This document shows, piece after piece, positions 8,102-46,243 of a stretch of 64,000 nucleotides of DNA. The stretch lies in NCBI GenBank assembly GCA_019873655.1, contig JAIOAU010000004.1:124001-188000 (forward strand). Reading direction: 5' to 3'. This DNA comes from Chloroflexota bacterium (GTDB taxonomy: Bacteria; Chloroflexota; Anaerolineae; Anaerolineales; Villigracilaceae). Each line of letters starts with the position of its first letter. Positions within the stretch are counted from its first letter, which is position 1. A model generated the notes under the pieces. That model was not told the origin of the DNA. It was given only the letters and a program-made list of their open reading frames with translations, and did not search any database. The translations under genes were made by a program, and so were the position numbers.

Positions 8102-8311
8102 CGGACTTTTTCACGGAATCACGGATGGAAACGGATTTGTCAACGGACTTTGTCACGGAAAAACGGATTTGTCAACGGACTTTTTCACGGAATCACGGAC
8201 GGAAACGGATTGGGACAACGGACTTTGTCACGGAATCGCGGATGGGAACGGATTGGGGTCAACGGACTTTGTCACGGAATCACGGATGGAAACGGATTTT
8301 TTGAATCACGG
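8099..8311. repeat. Degenerate 42-44 bp tandem repeat, CACGGAT family
   Basis: Five imperfect units begin with CAACGGACT at 8099, 8141, 8173, 8216 and 8260, spaced 42, 32, 43 and 44 bases. Each unit contains sub-words such as TCACGGAATCACGGATGG and AAACGGATTT. The array fills the whole spacer between a GT2 gene and a DUF115-type gene and reaches into the GT2 start codon. There are no spacers of CRISPR type and no dyad symmetry that would make a terminator. Confidence 0.9.
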
Positions 8312-8313
8312 AT

Positions 8314-9135
8314 TTAGTGTTGGAAGAGGGAATTGTAATCAACTTTGGGGAAGACGGTCAATTTGCCGCCGATGGTGGCATCGAGAATTTGACGATGGGC
8401 GGACTGGTAGGCAGCCCGGGCCATGCGGTAGGCGCGCTCGGAGGTCTCCAGGTCGGGCAGTTGCCAGCGGAAGCCTTTGCCAAAGTAGTTGGGGGCAAAG
8501 TGGTTGGGGTCGTCGCCCTCGGAGACGACCGTCTGATTGGCCTGGCCCTGGGTGACGAAGTTGTGGTCGACGCCGACGAGGATGATCTGCTCGAAGCCCA
8601 TGTGAAAGGCAAGTTGCAAGGCCACGTAGGTGACCGTCGCGCCCTCCCACAGACGATGACGGGCGTCGCGGGCAAAACGCGGACCGGTGTAGGTGGTGTA
8701 GAGGAAGGTGGGCAGGTCTGGCAGGGAGGTTTGCGGGGGGAAGAAGCGGTGGGCGCGCCAGGTCAGGAATTTGGGGATGGGAAGGGCCAGAATCTCGTCG
8801 CGGCACTGCTCGATGACCAGGTCGTTGATCGAGACGAGATAGGTGGTGGGGAAACCGAGTTCGGGGAAGAGCAGGTAAATCCGGTTGAGGCCGAAGGTGA
8901 TCTCGCCGCGCAGTCTGGTCAGGTCGGTGCGCCGCAGACTGGGGCCGTTGCCGAGGATGAAGCCGCGCTGACCGCGGTGGATGTCCTTAAGGGCGGCCAA
9001 ACGGTGCAGGCTTTCGCGCCGCCAGGGATGGAGGTAGGCAGGCCCCAAGTCGGGGAGGCGGCGGAGGGCGTCGTAGGAATCGCGGGCGAAGTCCCAGAGG
9101 GCGGGAGGCAGGGCAGATTTGATGGCGTGTTTCAT
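8314..9135 (-). CDS. DUF115/MptE-like protein, possible GT42-like sialyltransferase
   Basis: This 273-residue protein carries GFILGNGPSLRRTDL (about residues 57-71), then TFGLNRIYLLFPELGF and TTYLVSINDLVIEQC, and later the GVDHNFVTQG segment. The NGPSL motif with a downstream DH pair is found in the 6-hydroxymethylpterin pyrophosphokinase MptE-like (DUF115) superfamily. A similar NGPSL motif occurs in GT42 sialyltransferases. In a locus with two NeuB and several CMP-sugar synthetase genes, a nonulosonate transferase role is attractive but unproven. The ATG at 9135 overlaps the upstream SDR stop by 4 bases. A close paralog is at 24738-25499. Confidence 0.72.
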   Translation of the reverse strand: MKHAIKSALPPALWDFARDSYDALRRLPDLGPAYLHPWRRESLHRLAALKDIHRGQRGFILGNGPSLRRTDLTRLRGEITFGLNRIYLLFPELGFPTTYLVSINDLVIEQCRDEILALPIPKFLTWRAHRFFPPQTSLPDLPTFLYTTYTGPRFARDARHRLWEGATVTYVALQLAFHMGFEQIILVGVDHNFVTQGQANQTVVSEGDDPNHFAPNYFGKGFRWQLPDLETSERAYRMARAAYQSAHRQILDATIGGKLTVFPKVDYNSLFQH

Positions 9136-9914
9136 TCGGTGCTCAATCTGGCCGTCGCGCCGCCGTCCACGATCATCGCCTGGCCGGTCATGAAGGAGGA
9201 TTGCGTTTCGTCGGCCAGGAAGTAGATGGCATGGGCGATTTCCTCGGGCTTGCCGATGCGGCCGTTGACGGTCTTGCGGGCCAGGTTTTCGAGGCGCTTG
9301 AAGATGTCGTCGCCGGCGACATGGCCGCGGCCGAGGCCGGCGCGCAGCATGGGCGTGTCCACCGCGCCGGGCAGGATGGCGTTGACGCGGATGTTGTCGG
9401 GGGCGAATTCGATGGCCATGGCGCGCGTCAGGGCCAGCAGGCCGCCCTTGCTGGCGGCGTAGGCGGCAATGTTGGCCGAGGTCTGCACTGCATGGACCGA
9501 GGAGACGTTGACGATCGCCCCGCCGCCCGCCGCCTTGAAGAGCGGATAGGCCAGTTTGGCGCTCAGGAAGACCGACCGCAGGTTGGAAGCCATGACGGCG
9601 TCCCATTCCTCGACGGTGGTATCGAGCAGCGGCTTGGCAATCTGCAGGGCGGCGTTGTTGATGAGGGCATGCAGACGGTCGCTGAAGCCGCGCGCCTGCA
9701 GGAAGATGGCCTCCAGCGCGGCAGGGTCGGAAATGTCGGACTGGATGAAGAGGCCGTTTTCGGGAAAGGGGGATTGGAAGGGCGCCCGGTCAACGCCGAT
9801 GACGCGCCAGCCGCAATCGGCAAACAGGGAGACGGTGGCGCGGCCGATGCCGCCCGCCGCGCCGGTGATGAGGACGGTCTTGGGATGATGGGTGAAATGG
9901 GAAGAGGCGTTCAT
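9132..9914 (-). CDS. Short-chain dehydrogenase/reductase (SDR)
   Basis: A 260-residue classical SDR. The cofactor site is TVLITGAAGGIGRAT (about residues 13-27), with NNAALQIAKP following. The catalytic residues are Ser in VNVSSVHA and Tyr/Lys in YAASKGG. A preference for NAD over NADP is suggested by an acidic residue after the second strand (VIGVDRAPF). It lies between a D-2-hydroxyacid dehydrogenase and a DUF115-type gene, in an operon with a CMP-sugar synthetase. SDRs of this type (the PtmA group) recur in nonulosonate loci, so a sugar oxidation or reduction step is likely. The substrate is not identifiable. Confidence 0.88.
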   Translation of the reverse strand: MNASSHFTHHPKTVLITGAAGGIGRATVSLFADCGWRVIGVDRAPFQSPFPENGLFIQSDISDPAALEAIFLQARGFSDRLHALINNAALQIAKPLLDTTVEEWDAVMASNLRSVFLSAKLAYPLFKAAGGGAIVNVSSVHAVQTSANIAAYAASKGGLLALTRAMAIEFAPDNIRVNAILPGAVDTPMLRAGLGRGHVAGDDIFKRLENLARKTVNGRIGKPEEIAHAIYFLADETQSSFMTGQAMIVDGGATARLSTE

Positions 9915-9920
9915 TCCTTG

Positions 9921-10880
9921 CTATTCTCCAAGAAGATCATCGGATGGGAGTCCCAACCCATCGAGCAGGTTGCGGATGGTGTTCCAGTGGACGCGTTCCC
10001 AGGCGGCCGGGCTGGAATTGGCGTTGTGCGGCGCGAGCAGGACGTTGTCCATGCGGCAGAGCGGACTATCGGGGGGCAGCGGCTCGACCTCGAACACGTC
10101 CAGCGCCGCCCCGGCAATTGTACCGCTTTCCAGGGCGGCGACGAGGGCGGGTTCGTCCACGATGGGGCCGCGGGCGGTGTTGATGAGCACGGCCGTCGGG
10201 CGCATGAGGCTCAGGGTGCGGGCGTTCATCAGGTGGAAGGAGGTCGGGTTGAGGTCGCAGTTGAGCGAGACGAAGTCGGCGCGCCCCAGCAGGTCGTCGA
10301 GGCTGGTCATCTGGACGCCGACCTCGGCCAGGAAGACGTGGTCGATCTCGACGATGTCGTTGCCGAGGACGGTCATGCCGAAGGCGCGCGCCCGGCGGGC
10401 GACGGCCTTGCCAATCGTCCCGACGCCGACGATGCCGAGGGTGCACTCGTGCAGGGCGCGGCCGGGAATCTTCCGCCAGTCGCCGGACTTGACAGCGCGG
10501 TCCATCCACGGCAGGCGGCGGGCGAAGGCCAGCAGGTAGCCGAGGACGCTGTCGGCGACCGGCAAGGTGAAGGCGTTGGGGGTGCGGCCGACGCGGATTC
10601 CGAGGCGGGCGGCGGCCTGCAGGTCGATCGAGTCTACGCCGGTGCCCCATTTGGAGATGACCTTCAGGCGCGGGGCGCAGGCCTCCAGGACGCGGGCGGT
10701 GTAGCGGTCGTCGCCGCAGATCGCGCCATCGAATTGACCGGCGTAGCGCAGCAGGTCGGCCTCTTCGAGCCGTTCGCGCACCTCGGGGACGATGAGTTCG
10801 AGGCCATAGCGCGCGAAGACCGGGCGGAAGCGGTCGAGGAAGGGAATCATGTAGGGGGCGGAAAAGAGAACGACAGGCAT
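9921..10880 (-). CDS. D-isomer-specific 2-hydroxyacid dehydrogenase
   Basis: A 319-residue NAD-dependent dehydrogenase of the phosphoglycerate-dehydrogenase family. The Rossmann motif is TLGIVGVGTIGKAVARRA (about residues 147-164). Catalytic residues are Arg in NTARGPIVDE, Glu in VFEVEPLPPDSP and His in LAPHNANS, the usual Arg-Glu-His set. It lacks the regulatory ACT domain of SerA. It is preceded by a CMP-sugar synthetase (10-base gap) and followed by an SDR (6 bases). A role in making or modifying an alpha-keto sugar acid would fit, since nonulosonates are themselves 2-keto acids. That is inference. Confidence 0.88.
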   Translation of the reverse strand: MPVVLFSAPYMIPFLDRFRPVFARYGLELIVPEVRERLEEADLLRYAGQFDGAICGDDRYTARVLEACAPRLKVISKWGTGVDSIDLQAAARLGIRVGRTPNAFTLPVADSVLGYLLAFARRLPWMDRAVKSGDWRKIPGRALHECTLGIVGVGTIGKAVARRARAFGMTVLGNDIVEIDHVFLAEVGVQMTSLDDLLGRADFVSLNCDLNPTSFHLMNARTLSLMRPTAVLINTARGPIVDEPALVAALESGTIAGAALDVFEVEPLPPDSPLCRMDNVLLAPHNANSSPAAWERVHWNTIRNLLDGLGLPSDDLLGE

Positions 10881-10890
10881 GGGTCTCCTC

Positions 10891-11559
10891 TCACGAACTG
10901 CGCTGACGCATGAGGAAGTCGGCGATGGCGAAGTCGAGTTCCTCGTCGATGTCCCAGGCTTCGGCGGGGTCGATTTCGAACAGGAGCGGGCGCTCGCCGA
11001 TGCGGTGACGCCGCCGGACGAGGTTCTGACGGGTGAAGAGGTAAATGCAGGAATTTTCCTCGTAGACCGGCGGCAGGTCCTGGGTCTGGAGCAGTTCGTT
11101 GGGGTTGTGATTGATGGCGCGTCCCTGGGCGTCGTAGAGGCGGGTCTGGAGGCGCGTCACCGAGAAGAGCGAGTCGAAACGCGGATAAGCGGCCAGGAAG
11201 GTCTGAATGGCGCGCGAAATGGTCTCGGCGCGCAGGAGCGGGTTGGTGCTGTGGGTCTGGAGGTAGAAATCGGCCTCCACCTGGGCAGTGTCGTAGAGCA
11301 GGATGTCGTTCATGGGGATGTCGTCGGCGCGCAGATGCTCCGGGCGGACGATGACCTGCACCTGGGGGAAGTCGGCCCGCAGCCCGGCGATGACCGGCTC
11401 GGAATCGGTGTCCACCAGGATGGTCGAGATTTCCGGCACGGCGAGCAGGGTCTGGATGATGTGCTGGTAGAGTGGCTTGCCGGCCAGCGGGCGGTAGTTC
11501 TTGCCCGGCACGCGCTGGCTGTGGTGGCGCATGGGGACGAGGGCGGCGAGTGAAGTCAT
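10891..11559 (-). CDS. CMP-nonulosonate synthetase family (acylneuraminate cytidylyltransferase)
   Basis: This 222-residue enzyme is expected to activate a nonulosonic or related 2-keto-3-deoxy sugar acid with CTP. The CTP-binding start ALVPMRHHSQRVPGKNYRPL (residues 6-25) contains the P-loop-like RxPGKN. ILVDTDSEPV, FYLQTHSTNPLL and WDIDEELDFAIA near the C-terminus match the NeuA fold. The usual LIPARGGSK start is replaced by VPMRHHSQR, which marks a divergent subfamily. It lies in an operon with a D-2-hydroxyacid dehydrogenase and an SDR but without its own NeuB. The upstream GT2 gene ends 3 bases before this start. Confidence 0.85.
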   Translation of the reverse strand: MTSLAALVPMRHHSQRVPGKNYRPLAGKPLYQHIIQTLLAVPEISTILVDTDSEPVIAGLRADFPQVQVIVRPEHLRADDIPMNDILLYDTAQVEADFYLQTHSTNPLLRAETISRAIQTFLAAYPRFDSLFSVTRLQTRLYDAQGRAINHNPNELLQTQDLPPVYEENSCIYLFTRQNLVRRRHRIGERPLLFEIDPAEAWDIDEELDFAIADFLMRQRSS

Positions 11560-11562
11560 AGG

Positions 11563-12507
11563 CTACTCATTATACCGAATCGGCTCGATCTCGCGTTTGG
11601 AAGAAGTCGCTTTCTCCCAACCGACGTGATAATAGAAGGTCTGGCGCAGTTCGGGGGTCAGGGGGCTGGCGCGGCGGTAGCCCTGGTAGGTGCCCCAGAA
11701 TTGATTCCAGCGGAACCAGAAAATGCTCCCCAGGCTGCGCCAGAAGAGGCGGGCGCGGGCGGCGTGGAGCAGGTCGAAGAAGACGCTGGCGCTCAGGTTG
11801 CGCAGGAAATCGTAGAAATTGAAGTGCGCTTCGGGGAAGATGCGCTTGAAGGCCATCGCCTCGCGGCGGTAGCGGTTGCGGACGGCGCGCGGGGTCTCGT
11901 GATGGACGTGAATCACCTCCGCCTCGGCGACGTAAGCGATGGCGTAGCCCTGGGACTGCGCCCATTTGGCCCATTCGAGGTCTTCCAGGCCGGTCAGGGT
12001 CTCGTCGTAGGGGCGGGTCTGCCAGAGGGCGCGACGGACGGCGGCGTTGGCGTTGTTGCAGAAAGGGTGAGCCTGCCGCGCCGCCGACTGGTCGGGGTAC
12101 CAGCGGGCGAAGATTTGCTGTTCGGAGAAATGCGCCGTCGCCGGGCCGCGCTGTTTGCCGTAGGTCAGGGCCACCTGCGGGTCGGCGAACGGTTCGAGCA
12201 GGCGCTCCAGCCAGTCGGGATAGACCGGATAGACATGGGCGCTGGCAATGACGACCAGGTCGCGGCTGGCGGCGGCCAGGCCGAGGTTGAGGGAACGCCC
12301 GAAGGTGAACTCCTCGGGCGGGATGCGGACGAGGCGCGCCCCGTAGCGGGCGGCGATGGAAACGGTCGCGTCGGTCGAGCCGGAGTCGACCAGGATGACC
12401 TCCACGTCGCGGACCGTCTGGTGGCGGACGCCCTCCAGCAGGCGGCCGATGTGGGCCTCCTCGTTGTAGGCGCGGATGACGAGGGAACAGGCCGTCTTCT
12501 CAGTCAC
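11563..12507 (-). CDS. Family 2 glycosyltransferase
   Basis: A 314-residue GT2 enzyme with CSLVIRAYNEEAHIGRLLEG, VDSGSTDATVSIA and a donor or metal region around ASAHVYP. The acceptor motif LEDLEWAKWAQSQGY is clear. The C-terminal half has amphipathic helices that probably bind the membrane. The GTG at 12507 is chosen because it gives the conserved start directly and overlaps the upstream peptidase stop by 8 bases. The frame is open further upstream, but that part is the peptidase gene in another frame. The sequence is rhamnosyltransferase-like in general shape; donor unproven. Confidence 0.88.
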   Translation of the reverse strand: MTEKTACSLVIRAYNEEAHIGRLLEGVRHQTVRDVEVILVDSGSTDATVSIAARYGARLVRIPPEEFTFGRSLNLGLAAASRDLVVIASAHVYPVYPDWLERLLEPFADPQVALTYGKQRGPATAHFSEQQIFARWYPDQSAARQAHPFCNNANAAVRRALWQTRPYDETLTGLEDLEWAKWAQSQGYAIAYVAEAEVIHVHHETPRAVRNRYRREAMAFKRIFPEAHFNFYDFLRNLSASVFFDLLHAARARLFWRSLGSIFWFRWNQFWGTYQGYRRASPLTPELRQTFYYHVGWEKATSSKREIEPIRYNE

Positions 12508-13879
12508 CAACGGCCTCCAGCAAGCCGCCGGCCAGCAATTTCTCGGCCGCCTGATGCAACTGGCGCAGCGGCAGGCCGGTCTTTTCGGCGACCTCGAGCA
12601 GGGAGGTCTGCCCATCGGCGTAGAACAGGACCCAGCGCAGGGCGTCCAGTTCGCTGCCGTAGAGGATGTTGCCCTCGTCCACGACGTAGCGGCGCTCGCC
12701 GTGGGCGGCGGACGAGGCGACCTTCTGTTTGATGGCCCCACCCGTCTTCGGGTACAGGCCGCGCTTGCCAAGCATCGGCTCGCCGATGGGGTTGAGCGAG
12801 CGGTAACAGCGGTCGTATTCGAGTTTTTCGATGGCCAGCAGGTACAGTTTCAGGGTCTCGACCAGGTTTTCGGCGCTGATGAAGTCCAGGTTGTCGAGGG
12901 AGGTGTGGTAGTAGGGGTACTCGTAGTATTTGTCCTTGCAAATCGTGCCGACCGGGATGCGCAGACCCGGCTGGGAGTACTGGCGCTCGTCCGAGCCGTT
13001 GACGTCGAAGGGGTATTCGATGTAGTCCAGGCCGAGTTCGCGGAAGGTCAGGCGGACGACACGGTCGATGACGTCGTCGCCGCGGAAAGTCTGTTTGTAG
13101 CCGAACTTGCCGGGACCGGCGACCGTGGTCGCCACGAATCCGCCCGTCAGCGCCCGGACGGCGGCTTCGTTGCGGGCGATGTAGGCCAGGGCGCCGATCG
13201 TCTCCGGGGCGATGACGAAGCGGTAGGCGTGGCGCAGGGGACGGCGGCGCAACTCGGCCAGCAGGAGGGTCCACAAGACCGGGCCGGAGAGGTTGTCGTT
13301 GGCCAGCGAGGGGTGGCAGACGTAGGTCGAGAGGAGGTACTCGCGGCCCGACACGCCCGGCAGGAGCGCCTCGCCGTAGGTCAGCGCGCCGGGGGCCAGG
13401 GTGGTATCCACCACGACGCGGTAAGTCGCCTGGCGGTCGAGGCGCTGGAATTGTTCGTGGGTCAGGCAGAAGCCCCAGGCGCGGTGGTAGTACGTCGTCC
13501 GGTAGGGGATGGCGGTGGGCAGGTCGGGCAGGGTGTGCAGGTGCGGGGCGAGTTCGTCGAAGGTCAGCGTCCCCTCGAAGGGACAGGAGTAATTGACCAG
13601 GTGGATGTTGCTGGCGCGGAAGTCGATCAGCCGCCGGCCGGAGGAATCGGCCACGTAGGCGTCGCGGACGTTCCACTCGTCGGGGATGGTCCAGTCGTAG
13701 CAGACCGTGCCGGAGGGGACTTCGACCAGGTCGAAGGGGGTCACTTCGGCCAGGGCGCGCAGGGTCTGGCGCAGGCCGTCGCCGGTGATGGAGCGGCAGA
13801 GCGGGAAGAGGCGGCGCAGCAATTCGTCGGCGCGGGCCGTCAGGGCGGCCCAATCGGGCTGGAAGAGGGGCTCGGTCAT
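12500..13879 (-). CDS. DUF4910 M28-like zinc peptidase with C-terminal winged helix
   Basis: This 459-residue protein has an M28-type aminopeptidase fold with an inserted domain and a C-terminal winged-helix segment (about 380-459). Probable metal ligands are visible: His189 (VCHPSL), Asp195 (ANDNLSG), Glu226 (APETIG), Asp297/Glu298 (GSDERQYS) and His325 (YYHTSLDN). Members recur in polysaccharide loci with no settled function; amide hydrolysis on an amino sugar is one possibility. The ATG at 13879 is chosen over a start 48 bases upstream because AAGGTGA lies just before it. It is the first gene of the leftward operon and diverges from the methyltransferase at 13952. The cytosolic location is inferred from the absence of a signal peptide. 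Confidence 0.85.
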   Translation of the reverse strand: MTEPLFQPDWAALTARADELLRRLFPLCRSITGDGLRQTLRALAEVTPFDLVEVPSGTVCYDWTIPDEWNVRDAYVADSSGRRLIDFRASNIHLVNYSCPFEGTLTFDELAPHLHTLPDLPTAIPYRTTYYHRAWGFCLTHEQFQRLDRQATYRVVVDTTLAPGALTYGEALLPGVSGREYLLSTYVCHPSLANDNLSGPVLWTLLLAELRRRPLRHAYRFVIAPETIGALAYIARNEAAVRALTGGFVATTVAGPGKFGYKQTFRGDDVIDRVVRLTFRELGLDYIEYPFDVNGSDERQYSQPGLRIPVGTICKDKYYEYPYYHTSLDNLDFISAENLVETLKLYLLAIEKLEYDRCYRSLNPIGEPMLGKRGLYPKTGGAIKQKVASSAAHGERRYVVDEGNILYGSELDALRWVLFYADGQTSLLEVAEKTGLPLRQLHQAAEKLLAGGLLEAVGD

Positions 13880-13888
13880 CGGGTCACC

Positions 13889-13951: not shown

Positions 13952-14677
13952 ATGACTGACAAGAAGAAAGCCGTTTCGGCCGTCGGCCCGATCTGGGAGG
14001 GCATTTACAGCGAGGGCAAGGCCTTGAACCGCTATCCTTTTGACCAGGTCGTTTCGTTCATCTATCGCAACTATTCACGCGCCAAGCCGCGCGCCGAGAC
14101 GAAGATTCTCGAAATCGGCTGCGGGGCGGGCAACAATCTGTGGTTCGCCGCCCGCGAGGGGTTCACCGTCGCCGGCGTGGACGGCAGTCCGAGCGCCATC
14201 GAGTTCGCCCGCAAACGCTTCGCCGAAGAGGGCCTGGAGGGCGACCTGCGGGTGGCGGATTTCATCCACCTGCCCTTCGCCGACAACACCTTCGACTTCG
14301 TCATCGACCGCGCCGCCCTGACCTGTTCCGGGACGAGCGCCGCCCGCAAGACGATCGCCGAGGTGCGCCGCGTGCTCATCCCGGACGGCAAATTCTTCTT
14401 CAACCCGTACAGCGACCATCACAGCAGTTGCGTCGCCGGCAAGCCCGGCCAGGACGACCTGACGGTGGACATCCGCGGCGGGACGCTGGTGGACATCGGC
14501 CCGCTGCGCTTCTACGGCAAGCGCGACATCCTGGACATGTTCCGCGACGGCTGGCGGGTGCTCAGTCTGCGGCATATCGAGATCGTCGAGGAACTCGAAC
14601 CGCTCTACAACTGCCACGCCGAGTGGATTCTGATCGCCCAGAAGGTCGTCAACGTGCTGCAAGGCGTGCAGGATTGA
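13952..14677 (+). CDS. Class I SAM-dependent methyltransferase
   Basis: A 241-residue Methyltransf_11/25-type enzyme. The SAM motif I is KILEIGCGAGNNLWFA (about residues 50-65), motif II is VAGVDGSPSAIEFAR, and the motif IV region is LPFADNTFDFVIDRAAL. It is the only minus-to-plus switch inside the glycan locus and forms a monocistronic unit with its own promoter and terminator. Such lone methyltransferases often modify a sugar or lipid carrier; the substrate is not visible. Glycine- and aromatic-rich segments after residue 150 may form the substrate lid. A GAGAGGAG ribosome binding site stands 7 bases before the ATG. Confidence 0.88.
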   Translation: MTDKKKAVSAVGPIWEGIYSEGKALNRYPFDQVVSFIYRNYSRAKPRAETKILEIGCGAGNNLWFAAREGFTVAGVDGSPSAIEFARKRFAEEGLEGDLRVADFIHLPFADNTFDFVIDRAALTCSGTSAARKTIAEVRRVLIPDGKFFFNPYSDHHSSCVAGKPGQDDLTVDIRGGTLVDIGPLRFYGKRDILDMFRDGWRVLSLRHIEIVEELEPLYNCHAEWILIAQKVVNVLQGVQD

Positions 14678-14808: not shown

Positions 14809-15606
14809 TTAATCGGCTCCCATTTTGCCCTGCCCGCCGACCGGGCGGTTCTTGACCAGCGCCCAGGGATCGGCTCGCAGCAGTTCCTCTTCGACGGCGG
14901 CAAAATCGCGCAGGCGGCAGGAGGCCACCCGGCCGTAGTTGAGCGGGACGCTGGTCCACAGGCCGCGGCGCTCGAGTTCGCGCTGCACGGGGGCGGCGTC
15001 CACATCCGGGTCGAGGTCGAGGTCGCGGACGAACATGCGGTAGGTGCGCGTTTCGGGCGGGCGCCCGATCAGGCGCACCTCGCCGGTAAACTCTTTCCAG
15101 TAACGATAGGGAACCTGCAGGCGCTGTTCGGGCAGATGCACCATCGAGGTGAAGCGGACGTCCGCGCCCAGCAGAAGCAGTTTGAAATCCAGTTCGAGCA
15201 TGCGCTCGAAGGCCGAGCCGGGATCGAAGGCCGAGGATGTGTCGCGCCCGCACAGGTCGGCGGCGTGACGCCCGACCGCGGCGACCGACTGCATCGGGTG
15301 CGGCGAGCGCAGCACGCCCGGCTGGCGGCGGACGTATTCGGGAAAGACGCCCATCTCCTCGGCCGGGGTCTCGGCCTGGTCGAACGGCTGGCCGCGGGCG
15401 AAGCCGAAGTTGAAGGTCGGGACGACCAGCGTGCCGAGGTTCTCGTCGAGTCCGAGGACGGTCCGCAGGGCGTCGTAATAGATGCCGATTCCGCCCTCCG
15501 GCAGGCCGAGGAATTGCAGGGCGGCGTGGGCCATGACGCCGTCGCCGGGCTTCAATCCGACGGCGCGCAGGGTGGAAACGATCTGGTCGAGGGTGACTTT
15601 GAGCAT
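14809..15606 (-). CDS. AAC(3)-family N-acyltransferase, glycan-associated
   Basis: This 265-residue protein belongs to the aminoglycoside 3-N-acetyltransferase fold. The family marks are VMAHAALQFLG (residues about 24-34), VVPTFNFGF, LRSPHPMQSVAAVG (about 98-111) and FTSMVHLPEQRLQVPYR. The family transfers an acyl group from a phosphopantetheine thioester (normally acetyl-CoA) to an amine. Many members are in sugar loci rather than resistance loci. The two genes before it are an aminoacyl-carrier-protein ligase and its probable carrier protein, whose prosthetic group is the same as the business end of CoA. I infer that this enzyme transfers the aminoacyl group to an amino sugar. Plain N-acetylation is the alternative. 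It is the last gene of the operon. Confidence 0.85.
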   Translation of the reverse strand: MLKVTLDQIVSTLRAVGLKPGDGVMAHAALQFLGLPEGGIGIYYDALRTVLGLDENLGTLVVPTFNFGFARGQPFDQAETPAEEMGVFPEYVRRQPGVLRSPHPMQSVAAVGRHAADLCGRDTSSAFDPGSAFERMLELDFKLLLLGADVRFTSMVHLPEQRLQVPYRYWKEFTGEVRLIGRPPETRTYRMFVRDLDLDPDVDAAPVQRELERRGLWTSVPLNYGRVASCRLRDFAAVEEELLRADPWALVKNRPVGGQGKMGAD

Positions 15607-15689
15607 GTTTCAGAATCTGACGAGGTATCTAAGGTGTCTGATGGGACATCGCGTGTCGCGCCATTGGCGCAATTCGATGCGATGAACCC

Positions 15690-16877
15690 TCAGGCCACGG
15701 CTTTGCGGACGGCCTCCGGCCAGGCCGCCGTCTCCAGCCCGTACTGGGCCAGGAAGGCGTAGGCCATGCGTTCCAGCCCGAAGGCGATGCAGCCGGTGTG
15801 GACGGGGGAGCCGTCGGGCAGGGTGATGTTCAGCGCCCGGCCGAAGAAATCCTGGTGATAATTGTACGAGCCGACCGCCAGGGTGCTGTCCTTGAAGGGC
15901 AGGCGGGCGCGAATCTCGAACTTCAACTGGAAGGCGCTCTGGAAGGCGGCCTGCTTCTTGAACTCGCCGATGAAGAACGGGTCGTTGGCGCTCTCGACGT
16001 GATAGGCCAGGCCGATCTGCTCGAAGAAATCGCGCATGCGCTGGCGGCCGGTCTCGCGGTTTTGCAGGACGAAGTCCTTCGGCCCGACGAAGATGACCTC
16101 GCGCATGGTGAAATTCCACATCCGCTCCAGCGAGGCCAGGTTGAGCGATTCGTAGCGGAAGCAGTTGCCGACCGCCGTCGCCGCCAGGCTGCCGCCGGGC
16201 AGCGGCCGGTCGGCCAGCGAAAAGTACAGGTGATAGCAGACCGCCGGCGAGAGCAGGGTCTGGATGGGAGCGAACGACTCGGGCGGCGCGTTCAGGCCGT
16301 CCTCGCCGCAGGCGGCGTGCTGGGCGAAATCGTCGATCACATCCAGGTCTTCGCGCAGGTGGGTGACGAAGGTCAGCGAGTGCGGGAAGGCGCGGAAGTA
16401 GTGGACGCGCTCCAGGAAACGGGCCGGGATGAGGGTCGGGAAGCGGTAGGGGGCCGCCCCGAACGAATCGGCCAGGGCCACGAACTGCGCCTCGAAGAAG
16501 GCGATCAGGCGGGAGACCAGCGGGCCGAGGGTGAAGATGCCGGCCGCCTCCTGGAACATTTCGCCGCGCTCCAGCAGGCCGGCGTTGGGGTCGCCGCGGT
16601 AGGGGACGGGGCGGTCGGAGTAATCTTCGAGAACCTGGACCTTGGGCTTGAACGCGCCCGCGACCATCGCCTGCACGACGCGCTGCACCTTGGCCTCCAG
16701 CGCTTGCCGGTCCGGACCCTCGACCGGCCGCCGCAGCGTGAGCGTGATGACCTCCCCCTGGGCGCTCAGGCGCGCCGCGGCGATGTTTTCGTCCACATAG
16801 GCCAGTTTGGACTGCACCTCGCCGACCAGAAAGGCCGGGATGGGCAGGGCCGGTGCGATTTCGATTTGCTGACTCAT
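15690..16877 (-). CDS. Amino acid:carrier-protein ligase (class II aaRS homolog)
   Basis: This 395-residue protein is a truncated class II aminoacyl-tRNA synthetase homolog of the amino acid:carrier-protein ligase group. These enzymes adenylate an amino acid and load it on the phosphopantetheine of a carrier protein instead of a tRNA. Motif 2 is GNCFRYES (237-244) and motif 3 CIAFGLERM (363-371). Cys214, Glu260 and Cys363 fit the zinc ligands of the family, which as I recall are Cys131, Glu176 and Cys279 in the Bradyrhizobium enzyme; the spacings agree closely. No tRNA-binding domain is seen. About 100 extra N-terminal residues precede the catalytic core. The start overlaps the carrier-protein stop by 4 bases, so the pair is translationally coupled. 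The amino acid is unknown. Confidence 0.87.
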   Translation of the reverse strand: MSQQIEIAPALPIPAFLVGEVQSKLAYVDENIAAARLSAQGEVITLTLRRPVEGPDRQALEAKVQRVVQAMVAGAFKPKVQVLEDYSDRPVPYRGDPNAGLLERGEMFQEAAGIFTLGPLVSRLIAFFEAQFVALADSFGAAPYRFPTLIPARFLERVHYFRAFPHSLTFVTHLREDLDVIDDFAQHAACGEDGLNAPPESFAPIQTLLSPAVCYHLYFSLADRPLPGGSLAATAVGNCFRYESLNLASLERMWNFTMREVIFVGPKDFVLQNRETGRQRMRDFFEQIGLAYHVESANDPFFIGEFKKQAAFQSAFQLKFEIRARLPFKDSTLAVGSYNYHQDFFGRALNITLPDGSPVHTGCIAFGLERMAYAFLAQYGLETAAWPEAVRKAVA

Positions 16878-17122
16878 GCTTTGTCTCCCGTTTTGCTCAG
16901 ATACTCACAGATGGCCGGCACGCTGGTCAGGGCGGCGATCACCTCGGCGTCGATAGGGACGCCGAAACGCTCCTCCAGCAGGAGCATGACGCCCATGTGG
17001 CCCATCGAATCCCACTGTTTGACGCCGCCGAAGGCCAGGTCGGGCGGAATCTCCTCTTTGGGCAGGCTGAACGCCTCCGCCAACAGAGCGCGCACGTTTT
17101 CCAATAATTCGACGTTCTCCAT
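16874..17122 (-). CDS. Acyl/aminoacyl carrier protein
   Basis: An 82-residue phosphopantetheine carrier protein. Ser39 in KQWDSMGHMGVML is the attachment site for 4'-phosphopantetheine, and the surrounding acidic helices (LLAEAFSLPKEEIPPD, LLLEERFGVPID) are typical. The fabD, fabG and fabF genes that usually sit beside fatty-acid ACP are absent. Instead it overlaps the aminoacyl-CP ligase gene by 4 bases and follows the polymerase gene by 6 bases. It therefore looks like a dedicated carrier for an amino acid on its way to a glycan. A phosphopantetheinyl transferase must come from elsewhere in the genome. Confidence 0.9.
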   Translation of the reverse strand: MENVELLENVRALLAEAFSLPKEEIPPDLAFGGVKQWDSMGHMGVMLLLEERFGVPIDAEVIAALTSVPAICEYLSKTGDKA

Positions 17123-17128
17123 CCAGAA

Positions 17129-18607
17129 TCAATCCTTTCGAACGGTCTCTTCGGCGGCCTGGCGGCGGGCCAGGAAACTGGCCGAGACGACCAGGCCGAA
17201 TGTCGTCCAGGTGTAAGGAAGCGCAAACGAATCCACGCTGAAGCCCTCGCCGAGCAGGGCGATCACGCCCAGCATCCCCATCCAGCCGAGGGCGCGCCAG
17301 AGCGCCTCGCCGCGGCGTTGCAAGGTCTGCGCCGAGGCGAAGAGAATGGACAGCCAGGAGACGAACAGGGCAAACCCGACGACGCCGGTCTCGGCCAGCA
17401 GGCGCAGCCAGAGATTCTTGGGGTTGACCAGGAAGGTGTTTTCCAGGTAAATCTTCTGGAACTCGTTGAGCGCCCAGCCGAACTGCGGCAGATGGCTCTC
17501 GAAATAGAAGCCGGTGTTGCCCAGCCCGACGCCCAGCCAGGGGAAAGCAGTGAAGACGTTCCAGCCCAGGCCCCAATAGGCCAAGCGCTCGGCGAGCGTC
17601 AATTGATTGGCCAGGTAGAAGAAATTCCCGCCGCCGTACGTCAGCGTGAAGATGGCCGCCACGCGCGCGTCCAGCCGCGAGAGCAGATAGACGCCCAGCG
17701 CCGCCAGCGCGGCGAAGGAGGCCAGCATCCCGGCCCGGACGAGCGCCGGCCGCCGGCCGCCGCCCAGCCGTCCCGCCAGCGCGCCGCTCACCCTCCAGAC
17801 CAGGAAGGCCAGGACGAGCAGGAGGGTCAGATAGCCGATGCGCGACAGGCTGGCGTACGAGAGCAGAATCCCAGCCGCCAGCAGGACATTCTCGACCGAC
17901 AAGCGCCCCAGGCGGAAGCGCCAGGCCGAGTAACCGGCCAGCGAAGCGCCCAGCCAGTAGGGCAGGTAGAGCATGTTCAACTGGTGGGCCAGCCAGGAGG
18001 GTTCGAAGGCAAAGCCCGCCACCCGTTTCATGCGCAGAAATTCGAGCAGCGACCCCAGCGAGAGCACGCGGTGAACCGCCAGGACGGCCGGCGGGAAGAA
18101 TTCGCTGCCATGCAGGTAAATGTAATACAACTGGAACAGGCACCAGGCGACGATGAGAACGCCGCCCATGTTGATGAGCGCCAGCAGGGGCCGGTATTCG
18201 GCCGGATCGCGCAGGGCGACCGCGAAGAAGAGGAAACAGGCGCAGCCGACCAGCAGGGTCAGCAGGGCCGAGAGGACTTCGCGCGGCGGGTTGATGCCTT
18301 TGTAGAACGGCAGATCGGCAGAGAAGAAAGACAGCAGCGAAGACAACAGCGCCGCGCCCGCGAAAGCCGCCAGCGGGACGATTTCGCCCGGCCAGCGCTC
18401 GCCGCCCAGCCAGACCGTCGGCAGGTAGAACGCCAGCCCCAGGGCGACGAAGACCAGCGAGGGCGGCGCGACCATCGTCCCGCCCATCAGCCGCGAGAGG
18501 AGGGGCAGGCTGGTCAGCGGCAGGAGCAGGACGGCCGCCAGGGCGCAGAACCGCGTCAGCGGGCGCGCCAGGTGGGCGTACCCCTCGAGGGCGGCGCGCA
18601 GCCTCAT
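17129..18607 (-). CDS. O-antigen polymerase/ligase (Wzy-like) membrane protein
   Basis: A 492-residue protein with ten or more transmembrane helices, beginning near residue 19. A long hydrophilic loop (about 330-410) contains GVGLGNTGFYFESH and NPKNLWLRLLAETGVVG, a region typical of the Wzy/WaaL (Wzy_C) family. It should join lipid-linked repeat units on the outer face of the membrane or ligate glycan to a final acceptor. The start at 18607 overlaps the stop of the Wzz-like gene (ATGA). The frame is open further upstream but only as an antisense or out-of-frame read of the next genes. Polymerase versus ligase cannot be told from sequence. Confidence 0.85.
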   Translation of the reverse strand: MRLRAALEGYAHLARPLTRFCALAAVLLLPLTSLPLLSRLMGGTMVAPPSLVFVALGLAFYLPTVWLGGERWPGEIVPLAAFAGAALLSSLLSFFSADLPFYKGINPPREVLSALLTLLVGCACFLFFAVALRDPAEYRPLLALINMGGVLIVAWCLFQLYYIYLHGSEFFPPAVLAVHRVLSLGSLLEFLRMKRVAGFAFEPSWLAHQLNMLYLPYWLGASLAGYSAWRFRLGRLSVENVLLAAGILLSYASLSRIGYLTLLLVLAFLVWRVSGALAGRLGGGRRPALVRAGMLASFAALAALGVYLLSRLDARVAAIFTLTYGGGNFFYLANQLTLAERLAYWGLGWNVFTAFPWLGVGLGNTGFYFESHLPQFGWALNEFQKIYLENTFLVNPKNLWLRLLAETGVVGFALFVSWLSILFASAQTLQRRGEALWRALGWMGMLGVIALLGEGFSVDSFALPYTWTTFGLVVSASFLARRQAAEETVRKD

Positions 18608-19407
18608 GCGGCCCTCCCCCGGCGCGGCAGGCCGGCCGCGACCAGCAGGACGCCCGCCAGCCAGCCCAGGGCCGCTCCCGCCAGTAACAAAACGCCCGCC
18701 GCGTGGCGCTGCGGCGCAGCCGGGACCTCGGCCAGGCGCACCAGTTCGAGGCGGATGGCCGGGTCGAGGCGGCGGCTGGCGGCGCGCTCCCGCTCCAGGC
18801 GGGCAGTCGCCTCGTTCAGGCGGGCGCTGACCTCGGCGGCGGAGGCAAAATTCGTCCCGGCGCAGGCGTTGCCGGCGGCCAGGTCGCCGCCGGAGAAACA
18901 GGTCTCCAGCAGAGCCAGTTCGAGGCTCGATTCCCAGGCGGCGACAGCGTGGCCGTAGGCCTCCTGCAGGACGGGATCGGCGGCCTGCGCCCAGGCGTTC
19001 GCCAGGCGGGCGGCCGTCTGCGGGTCGGCGGCGCGGGCGGTGAACATCCAGGTGGTGTAGTAGCGGTCGAGGCGGACGCGGGCGCGGAATTCGTCCTCCG
19101 AGATCGAGAGGCCCTCCGCCTGCAAGCGCCGGACGGCCCCGGCGATGACGTCGTCGGCGTAAATCAGGTCGTCCACCGCGCCGAGCGGCTCTCGCAGGTC
19201 GAGCGCGACGATGTACTCCAGGTGATGTTCGGCGGCGAACAATTCGAAATCGAAGGAGACGTAATACTCGGCCTGCGCCACATAGACGGGCGGCAGGAAG
19301 GCGGCCGCGGCGCGCCCCAGCAGGGCGCCCAGGACGGCCAGGAGGACCATCAGCCACCAGCCGCGCAGGAGACGGTTCAGGACGGTCAGCGGGTCAAATG
19401 CGTTCAT
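18604..19407 (-). CDS. Wzz-like chain-length regulator (polysaccharide co-polymerase)
   Basis: A 267-residue protein with two membrane helices, residues 15-38 (GWWLMVLLAVLGALLG) and about 234-258 (VLLLAGAALGWLAGVLLVAA), flanking a large outer domain. A proline-containing segment precedes the second helix (VPAAPQRHAAG). This is the Wzz/KpsE layout without a tyrosine-kinase domain. Two cysteines (ETCFSGGDLAAGNACAG) could form a disulfide in the outer domain, which is unusual for the family. It lies between the initiating transferase and the polymerase, with 14- and 4-base overlaps. It would set the length of the polymer. Confidence 0.82.
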   Translation of the reverse strand: MNAFDPLTVLNRLLRGWWLMVLLAVLGALLGRAAAAFLPPVYVAQAEYYVSFDFELFAAEHHLEYIVALDLREPLGAVDDLIYADDVIAGAVRRLQAEGLSISEDEFRARVRLDRYYTTWMFTARAADPQTAARLANAWAQAADPVLQEAYGHAVAAWESSLELALLETCFSGGDLAAGNACAGTNFASAAEVSARLNEATARLERERAASRRLDPAIRLELVRLAEVPAAPQRHAAGVLLLAGAALGWLAGVLLVAAGLPRRGRAA

Positions 19408-24741: not shown

Positions 24742-25499
24742 GCGAAGAGCGAGTCGTACTCCACTTTGGGGAAGACGGTCAACTTGCCGCCGATGGTGGC
24801 GTCCAGCACCTGGCGGCCGGCGCGCTCGTAGGCCTGCCGGGCCAGGCGGTAGGCGATTTCGGAGGTCTCAAGGTCGGGGAGTTCCCAGCGGAAACCCTTG
24901 CCGAAGTAGTGGGGCGAGAAGTGGTTGGGATCGTCGCCCTGCGAGGTGACGGCCTGCCCGGCCGGCCCCTGGGTGACGAAGTTGTGGTCCACGCCGACCA
25001 GGATGACCTGCTCGAAGCCCAGATGGTAGGCGATCTGCAGCGCCACGTAGGTGACGGTCGCCCCCGGCCAGAGCGGGCGGCGGACGTCGGCGGTGAAGCC
25101 GCGCCCGGGGCAGGAGGCGTTGAAGAAGACCGTATCGGCGGTCACGCCCGGCAGGTCGCGGCGCGACCCCCAGGGCAGGAACTTGGGCATGGGCAGGTCG
25201 AGAATCTCGGCCGCGCACTGACGGATGACGAGGTGATTGACCGAGACGAAATAGGTGGTGTGGAAACCGAGTTCGGGGAAGAGCAGGTAGACGCGGTTCA
25301 TCCCGAAGGTGTATTCGCCGCGCAGTTTGCTCAGGTCGGTGCGGCGCAGGCTGGGGCCGTTGCCTAGGATGAAGCAGCGTTTGCCGCGCTGGCTGTCCTT
25401 CCATTCCGTCAGCAGGCGGCGGCTCTGGCGGCCCCAGGGATGAACGGCCATGTCCAGGCGGTGCTTGAGGCAGCGCGCCAGTTCGAGGGGCAGGTTCAT
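24738..25499 (-). CDS. DUF115/MptE-like protein, second copy
   Basis: A 253-residue paralog of the protein at 8314-9135. Shared words include CFILGNGPSLRRTDLSKLRG, TFGMNRVYLLFPELGF, EQVILVGVDHNFVTQG and DATIGGKLTVFPKV. Over most of the length the two differ only by conservative changes. The N-terminus is shorter by about 20 residues. The fold is probably Rossmann-like with nucleotide binding at NGPSL. Candidate roles are a GT42-like transferase or a motility-associated-factor-like glycosyltransferase; neither can be proven here. It overlaps genes on both sides by 4 bases. Confidence 0.72.
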   Translation of the reverse strand: MNLPLELARCLKHRLDMAVHPWGRQSRRLLTEWKDSQRGKRCFILGNGPSLRRTDLSKLRGEYTFGMNRVYLLFPELGFHTTYFVSVNHLVIRQCAAEILDLPMPKFLPWGSRRDLPGVTADTVFFNASCPGRGFTADVRRPLWPGATVTYVALQIAYHLGFEQVILVGVDHNFVTQGPAGQAVTSQGDDPNHFSPHYFGKGFRWELPDLETSEIAYRLARQAYERAGRQVLDATIGGKLTVFPKVEYDSLFA

Positions 25500-27088
25500 A
25501 CGCTCTCCTTCAACAGGAAATCGCCGTCGTGCAGGATGCCGTCCACGATCGTCCGCAGGGTGGGGTGATTGAGGCTCAGGCGGGCGAGGGCCCCGGCCTT
25601 GAGGTGCACATAGCCGCGCTGACCGGAGGGGGTCAGGAAATCGTTGCAGGGCAGCGAGGTGCGGAACAGTTGATAGTAGAGGAAGCGGCGGGCGTGACGG
25701 CGGTGTTCGGCGGGCGGCGCGAGGCGCTCGGCCTGCAGGAAATCCTCCAGCATCCGCCGGTATTCCTCCACGCTGGAGGGGAAGAAGACGGTCGGATACT
25801 GGGTGAAGCGCGCCTTGCCGGCGCACAAGACCGCCGCGCCGAGAATCGAAGCCTCCAGGCCGATGGTGGAGTTGTAGATCATGACGAACTTGGACCGCTG
25901 AATCAACTCGTAGGAACTCACGTACTGGTCGGAGGGGATGAAGACCAGATTGGGCAGGGCGGTCGCCCGGCGGGCCGCGACCCAGTCGGCCACGCTCTCG
26001 CGGCTGGCCTTGCCGGGACGGGTCTCGTCGGGGTGGGCGCGCAGGACGAAGAGCGTCTCCGGATGCGCCCGGACGACCTCCAGCACCAGGTCGAGCCAGG
26101 TGAACATGTCGGGGAAGAGGACGTTGGAGTGCGGCTGGCTGGTGTCGAAGATGACGTTGGTGAAGACCGGCACGATCTGGCGGAAGGCGGCCGCCTTTTC
26201 GAGAAAGGCGGCGTCCAGGCCGCGCATTTCCGGCCAGAACTGGATGCCGGCCATGGTGAAGCGGCCCTGGAAGCGCTGCTCCAGGTAGGCGTCCAGGCGG
26301 GCGTTCTGGGCCGGGCTGAGGTCGAAGGAGTCGGGGATGGCGATGGGGTAGGCGGTCGCCTCGCCGAGGGTGAAGTAGGCGCTGAGGGGCTGCAGGCCGA
26401 CCTCGTGGGTCGCCGTACGGATGCCGCGCCGCCGGGCCAGGAAGGCGGCGGTCGCTTCGGGGAAGAACTGGCCGTTGAAGACCACCACCGCCTGCGGGTC
26501 GGTTTCGTCGAGCAGGCGCTCGAAGGCGCGCGCCACGCTCCAGGCCGAGAGGAGGAACTGGCGGAAGAGGAAACGGGTCGCTTCGTCATCGGCCAAATGA
26601 TGGCGGCGCAAGCGCCAGCGGACCGAGGGCAGGACCAGCGCGCCGAGCGGAATCCCCTCGTGGGCGACCTGGGCCAGTTCGTCCACCGAGAGCGGTTCGA
26701 GGCGGGCGGCCAGGGCGGGGTCGGGCTGGTAGCCGAAGAAGCGGGTCGGCGCGCCGACGGCCTGGACGGAACTCTGGCGGATGCACAGGCGGCAGGGCGG
26801 CGGCGACTCGGGGCGGTCGGGGTCGGCGCCCAGCACGCAGCGGGTCATGCCGGCGCGGCAGACGAAGTGGACGACCGGGGTTCCGGTCAGCCGCACCGCC
26901 CAGGCGGCCAGCAGCGAAAAGGCGGCGTTGAGGCTGAGTTCGTCGAGGCGGGTGGAGGCGTGGAAGAAGATCACCGGCCGCGCCCCGCGCCGGGGACGGG
27001 CGCGCAGGGCCAGCGCAGCCGAGAAGAGCGCCAGGCGTCCCTTGCCGCGCCAGAAATTCTGCAGCCGCCGGAGAGACCAGGCTCCCAT
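25496..27088 (-). CDS. Capsule-synthesis-like GT-B protein with a cysteine cluster
   Basis: A 530-residue protein related to the Capsule_synth/KpsS and surface-carbohydrate families. The C-terminal domain holds LFVLRAHPDETRPGKA, FIPSDQYVSSYELIQRSKFV and YNSTIGLEASILGAAVLC, the last being the sugar-nucleotide site of these GT-B enzymes. An N-terminal segment (about residues 77-105) has four cysteines, CRAGMTRCVLG and PPPCRLCIRQS, that could bind a metal; this is uncommon in the family. It starts 1 base after the NeuB stop and is followed by the second DUF115-type gene. It may transfer a CMP-activated sugar acid, as KpsC/KpsS do with Kdo. That is inference. Confidence 0.7.
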   Translation of the reverse strand: MGAWSLRRLQNFWRGKGRLALFSAALALRARPRRGARPVIFFHASTRLDELSLNAAFSLLAAWAVRLTGTPVVHFVCRAGMTRCVLGADPDRPESPPPCRLCIRQSSVQAVGAPTRFFGYQPDPALAARLEPLSVDELAQVAHEGIPLGALVLPSVRWRLRRHHLADDEATRFLFRQFLLSAWSVARAFERLLDETDPQAVVVFNGQFFPEATAAFLARRRGIRTATHEVGLQPLSAYFTLGEATAYPIAIPDSFDLSPAQNARLDAYLEQRFQGRFTMAGIQFWPEMRGLDAAFLEKAAAFRQIVPVFTNVIFDTSQPHSNVLFPDMFTWLDLVLEVVRAHPETLFVLRAHPDETRPGKASRESVADWVAARRATALPNLVFIPSDQYVSSYELIQRSKFVMIYNSTIGLEASILGAAVLCAGKARFTQYPTVFFPSSVEEYRRMLEDFLQAERLAPPAEHRRHARRFLYYQLFRTSLPCNDFLTPSGQRGYVHLKAGALARLSLNHPTLRTIVDGILHDGDFLLKESV

Positions 27089-29311: not shown

Positions 29312-29315
29312 AGAA

Positions 29316-44364: not shown

Positions 44365-44372
44365 GGTTAAGT

Positions 44373-44413
44373 GTGCGGGGTGCGGGGTGCGAGGTGCGAG
44401 GTGCGAGGTGCGG
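44373..44413. repeat. Low-complexity GTGCGAG repeat, left flank of the S23 gene
   Basis: About five 8-base units of the type GTGCGAG or GTGCGGG lie between the GT4 start and the S23 stop codon. The right flank (44789-44885) carries the complementary word CTCGCAC/TTCGCAC, so the two flanks are in inverted orientation. Confidence 0.88.
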
Positions 44414-44418
44414 GGGGG

Positions 44419-44784: not shown

Positions 44785-44788
44785 CCCT

Positions 44789-44885
44789 CACCTCGCACTT
44801 CGCACTCGGCACTTCGCACTTCGCACTTGGACACTTCGCACTTTGCACTTGACACTTCGCACTTCGCACTTGACACTTCGCACTC
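44789..44885. repeat. Low-complexity CACTTCGCAC repeat, right flank of the S23 gene
   Basis: About eleven copies of words such as CTTCGCAC, ACTTGACA and ACTTGGACA form an irregular 7-10 base array from the S23 start to the neuB stop codon. Compared with the left flank it is inverted. Confidence 0.88.
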
Positions 44886-45953: not shown

Positions 45954-45978
45954 AGGTTCCTCCTGAAGCAGAGCGGTT

Positions 45979-46238: not shown

Positions 46239-46243
46239 AATTT

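Follow-up and report, generated by a model that had tools for sequence, protein, structure and literature searches.

A putative tRNA-synthetase-type carrier loader in a candidate acylation module of a probable Chloroflexota nonulosonic-acid operon

Although amino acid:carrier-protein ligases became known in 2010, their biological role is still called unknown in a 2022 review (PMC9437257). Here we describe a locus in which the gene for a ligase of this type, related to class II aminoacyl-tRNA synthetases (aaRS), lies in a row with genes for a carrier protein and an AAC(3)-family N-acyltransferase. The locus comes from a Chloroflexota genome of 3.0 Mb, and the whole stretch analyzed, which we call the window, comprises 64,000 nucleotides at C4:124001-188000 (C4 is contig JAIOAU010000004.1). 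The encoded ligase resembles Bll0957 of Bradyrhizobium (3mey, 4h2s) in its catalytic core, in the positions of a Cys, a Glu and a Cys, and in having a carrier gene nearby, but its match to Bll0957 starts only at residue 92, which leaves an N-terminal extension of about 90 residues. The gene order in the four Bll0957-like plasmid loci that we examined, carrier - acyl-CoA dehydrogenase - ligase - DUF1839 - GH2, differs from that of the window operon.

Among the closest described systems is the operon of Clostridium acetobutylicum (CA_C2186-2199), in which the neighbours of the DUF4910 gene CA_C2195 are described as NeuB, an aminosugar N-acetyltransferase, an acyl carrier protein and an acetyltransferase+HAD protein, and where CA_C2195, according to Das et al. 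(2014), might either transfer an acyl group to an amino sugar or deacylate a sugar amide (PMC4000134). The likeness to our locus extends over NeuB, a sugar nucleotidyltransferase, DUF4910, the N-acetyltransferase and the acyl carrier protein, whereas the loader differs: Clostridium has the acetyltransferase+HAD protein, which we read as FkbH-like, and the window has an amino acid ligase (PMC4000134). From knockout, complementation and mass spectrometry, Hitchen et al. (2010) report that Campylobacter Cj1295 is required for a di-O-methylglyceroyl pseudaminic acid bearing this group on N5, and they propose that Cj1295, whose family includes C. acetobutylicum members, cleaves the C5 acetamido group (PMC3068675). 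That Cj1295 is of the DUF4910 type follows from the descriptions in PMC4000134 and PMC3068675 taken together. The Campylobacter locus also has an FkbH-domain gene, cj1302, and no dimethylglyceric acid is reported for strain 12664, in which cj1302 is a pseudogene, or for strain 12661, which has no cj1301 (PMC7099621). This system resembles ours in its DUF4910-type protein, which is needed there for a carrier-type acyl group on the sugar's N5, and it has an FkbH-domain gene in the locus (PMC3068675, PMC7099621).

An earlier note on this DNA, prepared from the letters alone, stated that no pathway of such a form was known. This was too strong, because the Clostridium operon and Cj1295, as described, already suggest carrier-fed N-acylation (PMC4000134, PMC3068675); the new element is the tRNA-synthetase-type loader. 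Zwittermicin synthesis offers the same alternative between an amino-acid-activating and a glyceryl loader, with ZmaJ loading serine on ZmaH next to the glyceryl pair ZmaN/ZmaD, for which a glyceryl-S-ZmaD synthase is named, although these loaders feed a polyketide synthase and not a sugar and are likened to the window ligase by description, not by sequence (PMC6395733). Aminoacyl groups are likewise on record for surface sugars, as in the nonulosonic acid Leg5Ac7AcAla of Vibrio vulnificus (PMC7371886) and as N-acetylalanyl or N-acetylglycyl groups on other sugars (PMC3210612). No link of such a ligase to a glycan was recognised among the titles and abstract openings listed from the open-licence literature, which is weak evidence of absence.

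The genes at the center of our analysis are the following.
16874-17122, minus strand: carrier protein of 82 amino acids, phosphopantetheine site Ser39 (PF00550, 28.5 bits against a cut-off of 20.8).
15690-16877, minus strand: class II aaRS-like amino acid:[carrier protein] ligase of 395 amino acids (PRK07080, 177 bits).
14809-15606, minus strand: AAC(3)-family N-acyltransferase of 265 amino acids (PF02522, 123.7 bits against a cut-off of 25).
13952-14677, plus strand: methyltransferase (PF08241), an opposite-strand insertion between the AAC(3) and DUF4910 genes, seen in 3 of 42 loci.
12500-13882, minus strand: DUF4910/DUF2172/HTH_47 protein (PF16254, 272 bits), the proposed N-deacylase partner.

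The earlier note had placed the carrier, ligase and AAC(3) genes in a row with the first two overlapping by 4 bases, and this is borne out by three intact open reading frames (ORFs), by the ATGA read at the carrier/ligase overlap and by the family matches; 83 bases separate the ligase and AAC(3) genes. The setting has to be redrawn. Instead of a set of three genes within an O-antigen operon of generic type, the locus appears to hold the acylation part of a nonulosonic-acid operon, in which DUF4910 (31 of 32 loci) and a GNAT (30 of 32) recur as well. Among the operon labels, wzy (PF04932) and wecA (PF00953, 110 bits) stand, whereas the wzz candidate at 18604-19407 has no Pfam match at 1e-5. The interval first assigned to the cassette omits DUF4910 (12500-13882) and the NeuB/NeuA genes at 25-34 kb, which are members of the same conserved set. 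We therefore favor, with moderate confidence and from sequence comparisons, the view that the whole is best explained as the acylation module of a pathway for a nonulosonic-acid (sialic-acid-like) surface sugar.

The order of events in such a module might be as follows. By homology to Bll0957, the ligase would activate a small amino acid with ATP and attach it to the carrier's phosphopantetheine arm. The DUF4910 protein would remove an N-acetyl group and so free the sugar amine, as has been hypothesized in print for Cj1295, and the AAC(3)-type enzyme would move the aminoacyl group from the carrier to this amine, as its fold, catalytic residues and gene association suggest. The N-aminoacylated sugar would then be activated with cytidine monophosphate (CMP) and built into an exported polysaccharide. 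The GNAT found in most relatives perhaps acetylates the aminoacyl group.

Conservation of gene order supports the proposed transfer. When one genome per species was scanned across 84,980 species, a search that detects close relatives only, 42 loci with a ligase relative emerged (58-91% identity in the best segment), and the titles of all their records read Chloroflexota, Chloroflexi, Anaerolineales, Anaerolineae, Anaerolineaceae or Anaerolinea. The typical order in these relatives is NeuA/HAD - NeuB - glycosyltransferase - carrier - ligase - GNAT - AAC(3) - DUF4910. A carrier ORF lies immediately upstream of the ligase in 38 of the 42; the contig starts in or just before the ligase in L014, L047 and L049, and no carrier was found in the 1.4 kb upstream of the ligase match in L038. 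AAC(3) follows the ligase in 38 loci at E 1e-5; L020 holds a fragment at a looser limit, and L012, L017 and L023 have less than 0.8 kb of sequence behind the ligase. When only loci with at least 3 kb of downstream sequence are counted, AAC(3) is found in 32 of 32, DUF4910 in 31 (the exception is L014) and the GNAT in 30 (L009 and L013 are the exceptions). Where at least 4.5 kb of upstream sequence is available, NeuB is present in 27 of 32 loci (absent from L009, L011, L023, L028 and L036) and NeuA/HAD likewise in 27 of 32. The three-gene order on which the earlier note had staked its proposal is thus kept in related genomes, both in these loci and in the co-occurrence described below.

Two further observations concern the variable parts of these loci. 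In L033, L041 and L048 a tandem pair of GNAT genes lies between ligase and AAC(3). Sulfotransferase genes occur near DUF4910 (for example, L022:10025-11819), with two types in 22 and 17 of the 42 loci, and none was recognised in L009, L010, L011 or L013.

Because the GNAT gene follows the ligase in 38 of 42 loci, and because AAC(3) relatives without a carrier exist, one could suppose that carrier and ligase feed the GNAT or some other enzyme, and that AAC(3) is an ordinary acetyl-CoA enzyme sharing the operon. We judge this improbable. The GNAT is missing across all 42 loci only from L009, L010, L011 and L013, and in these four the gap between ligase and AAC(3) shrinks to 8-28 bases, while it measures 467-2564 bases in the other 35, giving a bimodal distribution; the window, whose clade has no GNAT, has its 83 bases. 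Furthermore, no AAC(3) of the close clade defined below was found without a ligase (44 of 44).

Linkage between the ligase and AAC(3) is widespread in the order to which the window belongs, and exceeds chance. In 301 genomes of this order, searched twice, the ligase is present in 46 and an AAC(3) of any kind, at E 1e-15, in 128. Forty-four of the 128 form a close clade at E 1e-59 or better (the next value is 2.6e-38, and the split was set after seeing the gap), and all 44 are among the 46 ligase genomes. The two remaining ligase genomes are G503, whose 5909-base contig leaves 0.7 kb of sequence after the ligase, and G620, with a 6889-base contig that matches L030 in length and coordinates and stops inside an AAC(3) fragment. 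Ligase and AAC(3) lie within 2.6 kb on one contig in 41 of the 44 pairs; in G564, G497 and G529 the contigs end at most 0.7 kb behind the ligase. G584, which has no ligase, holds a fragment with an identity of 50% over 115 residues (E 2.5e-30) that may derive from a broken gene of the close clade. The Fisher p for co-occurrence is 6.6e-51 with no correction for kinship, and the relatedness of the genomes means that it cannot be read as a true probability. Among 61 relatives in a smaller set, seven have the ligase; G002, one of the two other genomes of the genus, lacks it.

Sequence features of the proteins agree with the proposed functions. The phosphopantetheine site proposed for the carrier, Ser39, is invariant in 39 of 39 sequences. 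In comparison with the PDB, the class II aaRS catalytic core of the ligase is closest to the PRK07080/Bll0957-type family: its top match is Bll0957 (3mey, E 1.6e-40), followed by an archaeal-type seryl-tRNA synthetase (SerRS; 7.9e-21). Its best NCBIfam model is likewise PRK07080, 'amino acid--[acyl-carrier-protein] ligase', with a score below the equivalog cut-off (177 against 357 bits), and it is therefore a divergent member of this family; PF00587 reaches 26.9 bits, slightly under the cut-off of 29.3. Cys214, Glu260 and Cys363, put forward earlier as zinc ligands, are invariant in 43 of 43 ligases of the phylum, as are Arg241 and Arg370, and the three align with the Cys, Glu and Cys of Bll0957, which we take to be zinc ligands there. 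The same predicted Cys-Glu-Cys site recurs in 10 of 10 aligned plasmid relatives. A structure model of the ligase is of moderate confidence (predicted local distance difference test, pLDDT, 80.5) and best matches Methanosarcina barkeri SerRS and Bll0957 with root-mean-square deviations of about 8-11; we accordingly draw no claims about the pocket from it.

Regarding the amino acid, glycine, alanine or serine is likely, judging from what is described of characterized relatives (PMC9437257). An alignment with ten other ligases gave a common core and no set of residues assignable to Gly, Ala or Ser, and the only ground for guessing serine would be the genes beside the nearest Streptomyces relatives. 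The closest aligned relatives outside the phylum (37% and 36%) lie with genes for a 3-hydroxyacyl-CoA dehydrogenase, a carrier and an acyl-CoA dehydrogenase, and ZmaJ, as noted above, loads serine for zwittermicin; the loaded carrier might thus supply a small-molecule precursor, as in the aminomalonyl-carrier route, and not a glycan. This is very unlikely in our estimation, given that neither dehydrogenase was recognised among the scanned genes around the cassette and that a small tree places the Chloroflexota ligases in a clade by themselves.

Beyond the phylum, a Tsukamurella plasmid (L148:13140-17033) encodes an amino acid:carrier ligase, a carrier and a phosphopantetheinyl transferase among glycosyltransferases, with no AAC(3) annotated in 32 kb, and is possibly another glycan link of this ligase family. 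A plasmid of Streptomyces NBC_00335 was considered as a second AAC(3)/ligase pair and rejected, as 10 kb with unrelated genes separates the two.

The AAC(3)-type enzyme likewise retains the features of its family. Its structure model is confident (pLDDT 95.3), and the top PDB matches are AAC(3) enzymes and FrbF, with template modelling (TM) scores of 0.75-0.80. His27 is invariant in 40 of 40 sequences, and Glu90, His103, His157 and Glu160 in 38 of 38. By alignment ends, His27 and His157 match H29 and H168 of meta-AAC0038, whose H29A and H168A mutants are named in PDB titles, and both catalytic histidines of the family are therefore kept. The enzyme shares fold, histidines and surrounding motif with AAC(3)/FrbF proteins (PF02522); it differs from them in belonging to a clade of its own that is tied to the carrier/ligase pair. 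Members of this clade are 48-100% identical to the window protein, while other AAC(3) proteins of the order do not exceed 38% over 200 residues (G621 reaches 42% over 170, besides the G584 fragment). We consider it likely, more so than the scheme as a whole, that the enzyme transfers an acyl group from the carrier to a sugar. The family name alone might suggest an aminoglycoside-resistance or self-protection enzyme that merely lies beside an unrelated carrier/ligase pair. We rejected a resistance role, and think it extremely unlikely, because the NCBIfam resistance models score far under their cut-off (the best 89.7 against 270 bits) and genes for sugar synthesis lie all around.

Chromosomal AAC(3) genes elsewhere in the window's family tie the enzyme to DUF4910 as well. 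In 20 such stretches from the phylum, all 11 from the window's family have DUF4910, eight of them with AAC(3) beside PseB and NeuB and three as single-gene fusions; no DUF4910 was seen in the nine from other families, and no ligase or carrier in any of the 20. The AAC(3)-DUF4910 fusions, of 708-718 amino acids, are found in three other genomes of the family without the ligase (L097:8492-10615, L099:1029-3152 and L100:6800-8953) and suggest that both domains act on one substrate. DUF4910 is not bound to AAC(3) everywhere, because plasmid loci of Shinella, Qingshengfaniella, Halorussus and Solidesulfovibrio (four examined of 42 records) have no adjoining AAC(3) annotated. That the DUF4910 protein strips an N-acyl group from the sugar is plausible, and we would put it just short of an even chance.

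The acceptor is probably a nonulosonic acid, because NeuB and NeuA/HAD genes belong to the conserved set and genes of the same kinds are present in the window. Relatives have, upstream, genes for a short-chain dehydrogenase/reductase (SDR), NeuA fused to a HAD phosphatase, NeuB and a capsule-type glycosyltransferase. The window has these kinds at 25-34 kb, separated from the cassette by four glycosyltransferases, wecA, the wzz candidate and wzy.
25496-27088, minus strand: capsule-type glycosyltransferase-like protein (no Pfam match of its own at 1e-5; its L037 relative matches PF05159, and its relatives precede the carrier gene).
27090-27980, minus strand: NeuB-family nonulosonate synthase 1 (PF03102, 273 bits; NeuB_NnaB, 268 bits, under the cut-off of 400).
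28079-29353, minus strand: CMP-sugar cytidylyltransferase fused to a KdsC-type HAD phosphatase (PseF 147 and KdsC 118 bits, both under equivalog cut-offs).
31332-32162, minus strand: SDR oxidoreductase of the nonulosonate operon (PF13561).
32167-32853, minus strand: hexapeptide-repeat protein, acyltransferase type (PF00132).
32859-33932, minus strand: Gfo/Idh/MocA oxidoreductase.
This NeuB gene is about 10 kb from the carrier gene, and NeuB, DUF4910, AAC(3) and carrier occur together in the window and in its relatives.

A second set of such genes is also present in the window.
47172-48173, minus strand: PseB, UDP-GlcNAc 4,6-dehydratase (TIGR03589, 501 bits against a cut-off of 408).
46244-47176, minus strand: RmlD-like SDR (reading frame with its start set by eye; the syntenic relative in G495 matches PF04321, 197 bits).
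44886-46028, minus strand: NeuB-family synthase 2 (PF03102 and SAF; under NCBIfam cut-offs).
42456-43274, minus strand: third cytidylyltransferase (PF02348, 107 bits).
The order PseB - RmlD-like - NeuB - further gene - cytidylyltransferase is the same here (42-48 kb) and in genome G495. With these genes and no aminotransferase, the set at 42456-48173 resembles a nonulosonic acid route in which an oxygen stays at the position of pseudaminic acid's second nitrogen.

A different role for AAC(3) in the same pathway has to be weighed here. It could act on a 4-amino sugar linked to uridine diphosphate (UDP) before NeuB condensation, like PseH or LegH, in which case DUF4910 would be otherwise employed and the amino acid would end on N7 of the nonulosonic acid. 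The AAC(3) family presumably includes LegH. LegH (Cj1298) is described as the N-acetyltransferase of the Campylobacter jejuni legionaminic pathway (PMC3438082), and the Leg5Ac7AcAla of Vibrio vulnificus, the eight genomes in which AAC(3) adjoins PseB and NeuB, and a DegT aminotransferase (PF01041, 390 bits) that lies past PseB in G495, at some 28 kb from the ligase, would all suit such a role. Two observations argue in the other direction. First, a DegT aminotransferase (PseC/LegC) would be expected nearby, but of the 16 matches in the window's genome none falls at C4:124001-188000, and the nearest clear one on the contig, C4:30598-31638, is more than 90 kb away. Second, DUF4910 is as constant as AAC(3) across the loci. 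We therefore regard action on a UDP-linked sugar as unlikely, while giving it some weight, and continue to favor acylation from the carrier of an amine that DUF4910 would expose.

Other AAC(3) genes are accompanied by loaders of different chemistry. FkbH enzymes load glyceryl groups on carriers, and the Campylobacter locus presumably also has a carrier gene. Eight plasmid AAC(3) loci were examined among the 30 matches listed, of 3193 records, and they serve as examples, not as a rate. AAC(3)-FkbH fusions (TIGR01686) occur on a Maritalea plasmid (290 bits; pseB, DUF4910 and NeuB near), in Sinorhizobium sp. RAC02 (284 bits; NeuB, NeuA-like and DUF4910 near; FkbH part 49% identical to that of Maritalea) and in Erwinia rhapontici (254 bits; the stretch has no annotated NeuB). 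The window's whole genome has no match to this FkbH model, and the same search returns hits in Maritalea and Sinorhizobium and in none of 14 named control genomes. Two related Solidesulfovibrio plasmids have the order adenylation domain (325 bits, cut-off 317) - carrier - uncharacterised gene - AAC(3). An Agrobacterium plasmid combines pse genes, a short AAC(3), an insertion sequence (IS) element and DUF4910, and the Halomontanus AAC(3) has no carrier, loader or DUF4910 annotated nearby. The route drawn in the earlier note, from ligase through carrier and AAC(3) to an amino sugar, gains as a prediction from gene order, co-occurrence, retained residues and these unrelated loaders beside or fused to other AAC(3) proteins. 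As a separate observation, the Solidesulfovibrio gene between carrier and AAC(3) encodes a 241-residue protein (L091:5144-5869 and L149:8790-9515), whose L091 copy has no Pfam or NCBIfam match.

Several points weigh against a carrier-fed acylation module. The first is the score of the ligase, which misses its equivalog cut-off, and among its distant plasmid relatives none has an adjoining AAC(3) (10 annotated neighbourhoods, from 11 examined of 93 records). In all 11 genomes examined from the window's own family whose AAC(3) is more distant, this gene adjoins DUF4910 or is fused to it, and neither a ligase nor a recognisable carrier accompanies it. The wider AAC(3) family can therefore probably work from acetyl-CoA, and it is from the linkage described above that we infer the carrier to be the donor here. 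A motif search of the sequence stretches at hand for the FkbH-fusion loci revealed no carrier gene, and the protein annotated as a carrier in Solidesulfovibrio, although it contains a DSL motif, gives no Pfam or NCBIfam match at the thresholds used. The usual metallopeptidase catalytic residues are described as missing from the DUF4910 protein (PMC4000134), and the N-acetyltransferase gene Cj1296/7 beside Cj1295 is listed as out of frame in both flagellin variants (PMC3068675, Table 1). Finally, the window has no DegT aminotransferase, which fits the stripping idea and does not prove it.

Combining these lines, we tentatively suggest a strip-and-reload editor, in which DUF4910 would remove an N-acetyl group and AAC(3) would reload the amine from a carrier, while an FkbH domain, an adenylation domain or a ligase would set the chemistry; in these Chloroflexota, amino acids would thus be placed on nonulosonic acids. 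A general rule could be that one DUF4910/AAC(3) core with exchangeable carrier loaders varies the acyl group on sialic-acid-like sugars. If true, this would be the first known role for the amino acid:carrier-protein ligase family, for which the gene context suggests a concrete substrate and product, and which can be tested with four proteins. The aminoacyl groups would bring positive charge to an otherwise acidic surface sugar.

Downstream of DUF4910, four further genes continue on the same strand.
11563-12510, minus strand: family 2 glycosyltransferase (PF00535).
10891-11559, minus strand: second cytidylyltransferase (PF02348; PseF 62 bits, under the cut-off).
9921-10880, minus strand: D-2-hydroxyacid dehydrogenase (PF02826), in 9 of 42 loci within available flanks.
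9132-9914, minus strand: SDR oxidoreductase (PF13561), in 5 of 42 loci within available flanks.
The window also contains tandem arrays. One, at 45987-46241, has a 41/81-base unit with 6.3 copies of the 41-base unit and adjoins the RmlD-like gene and the second NeuB gene; the others lie at 8129-8298 and 48208-48403 (units of 32, 44 and 87 bases, and of 106 bases).

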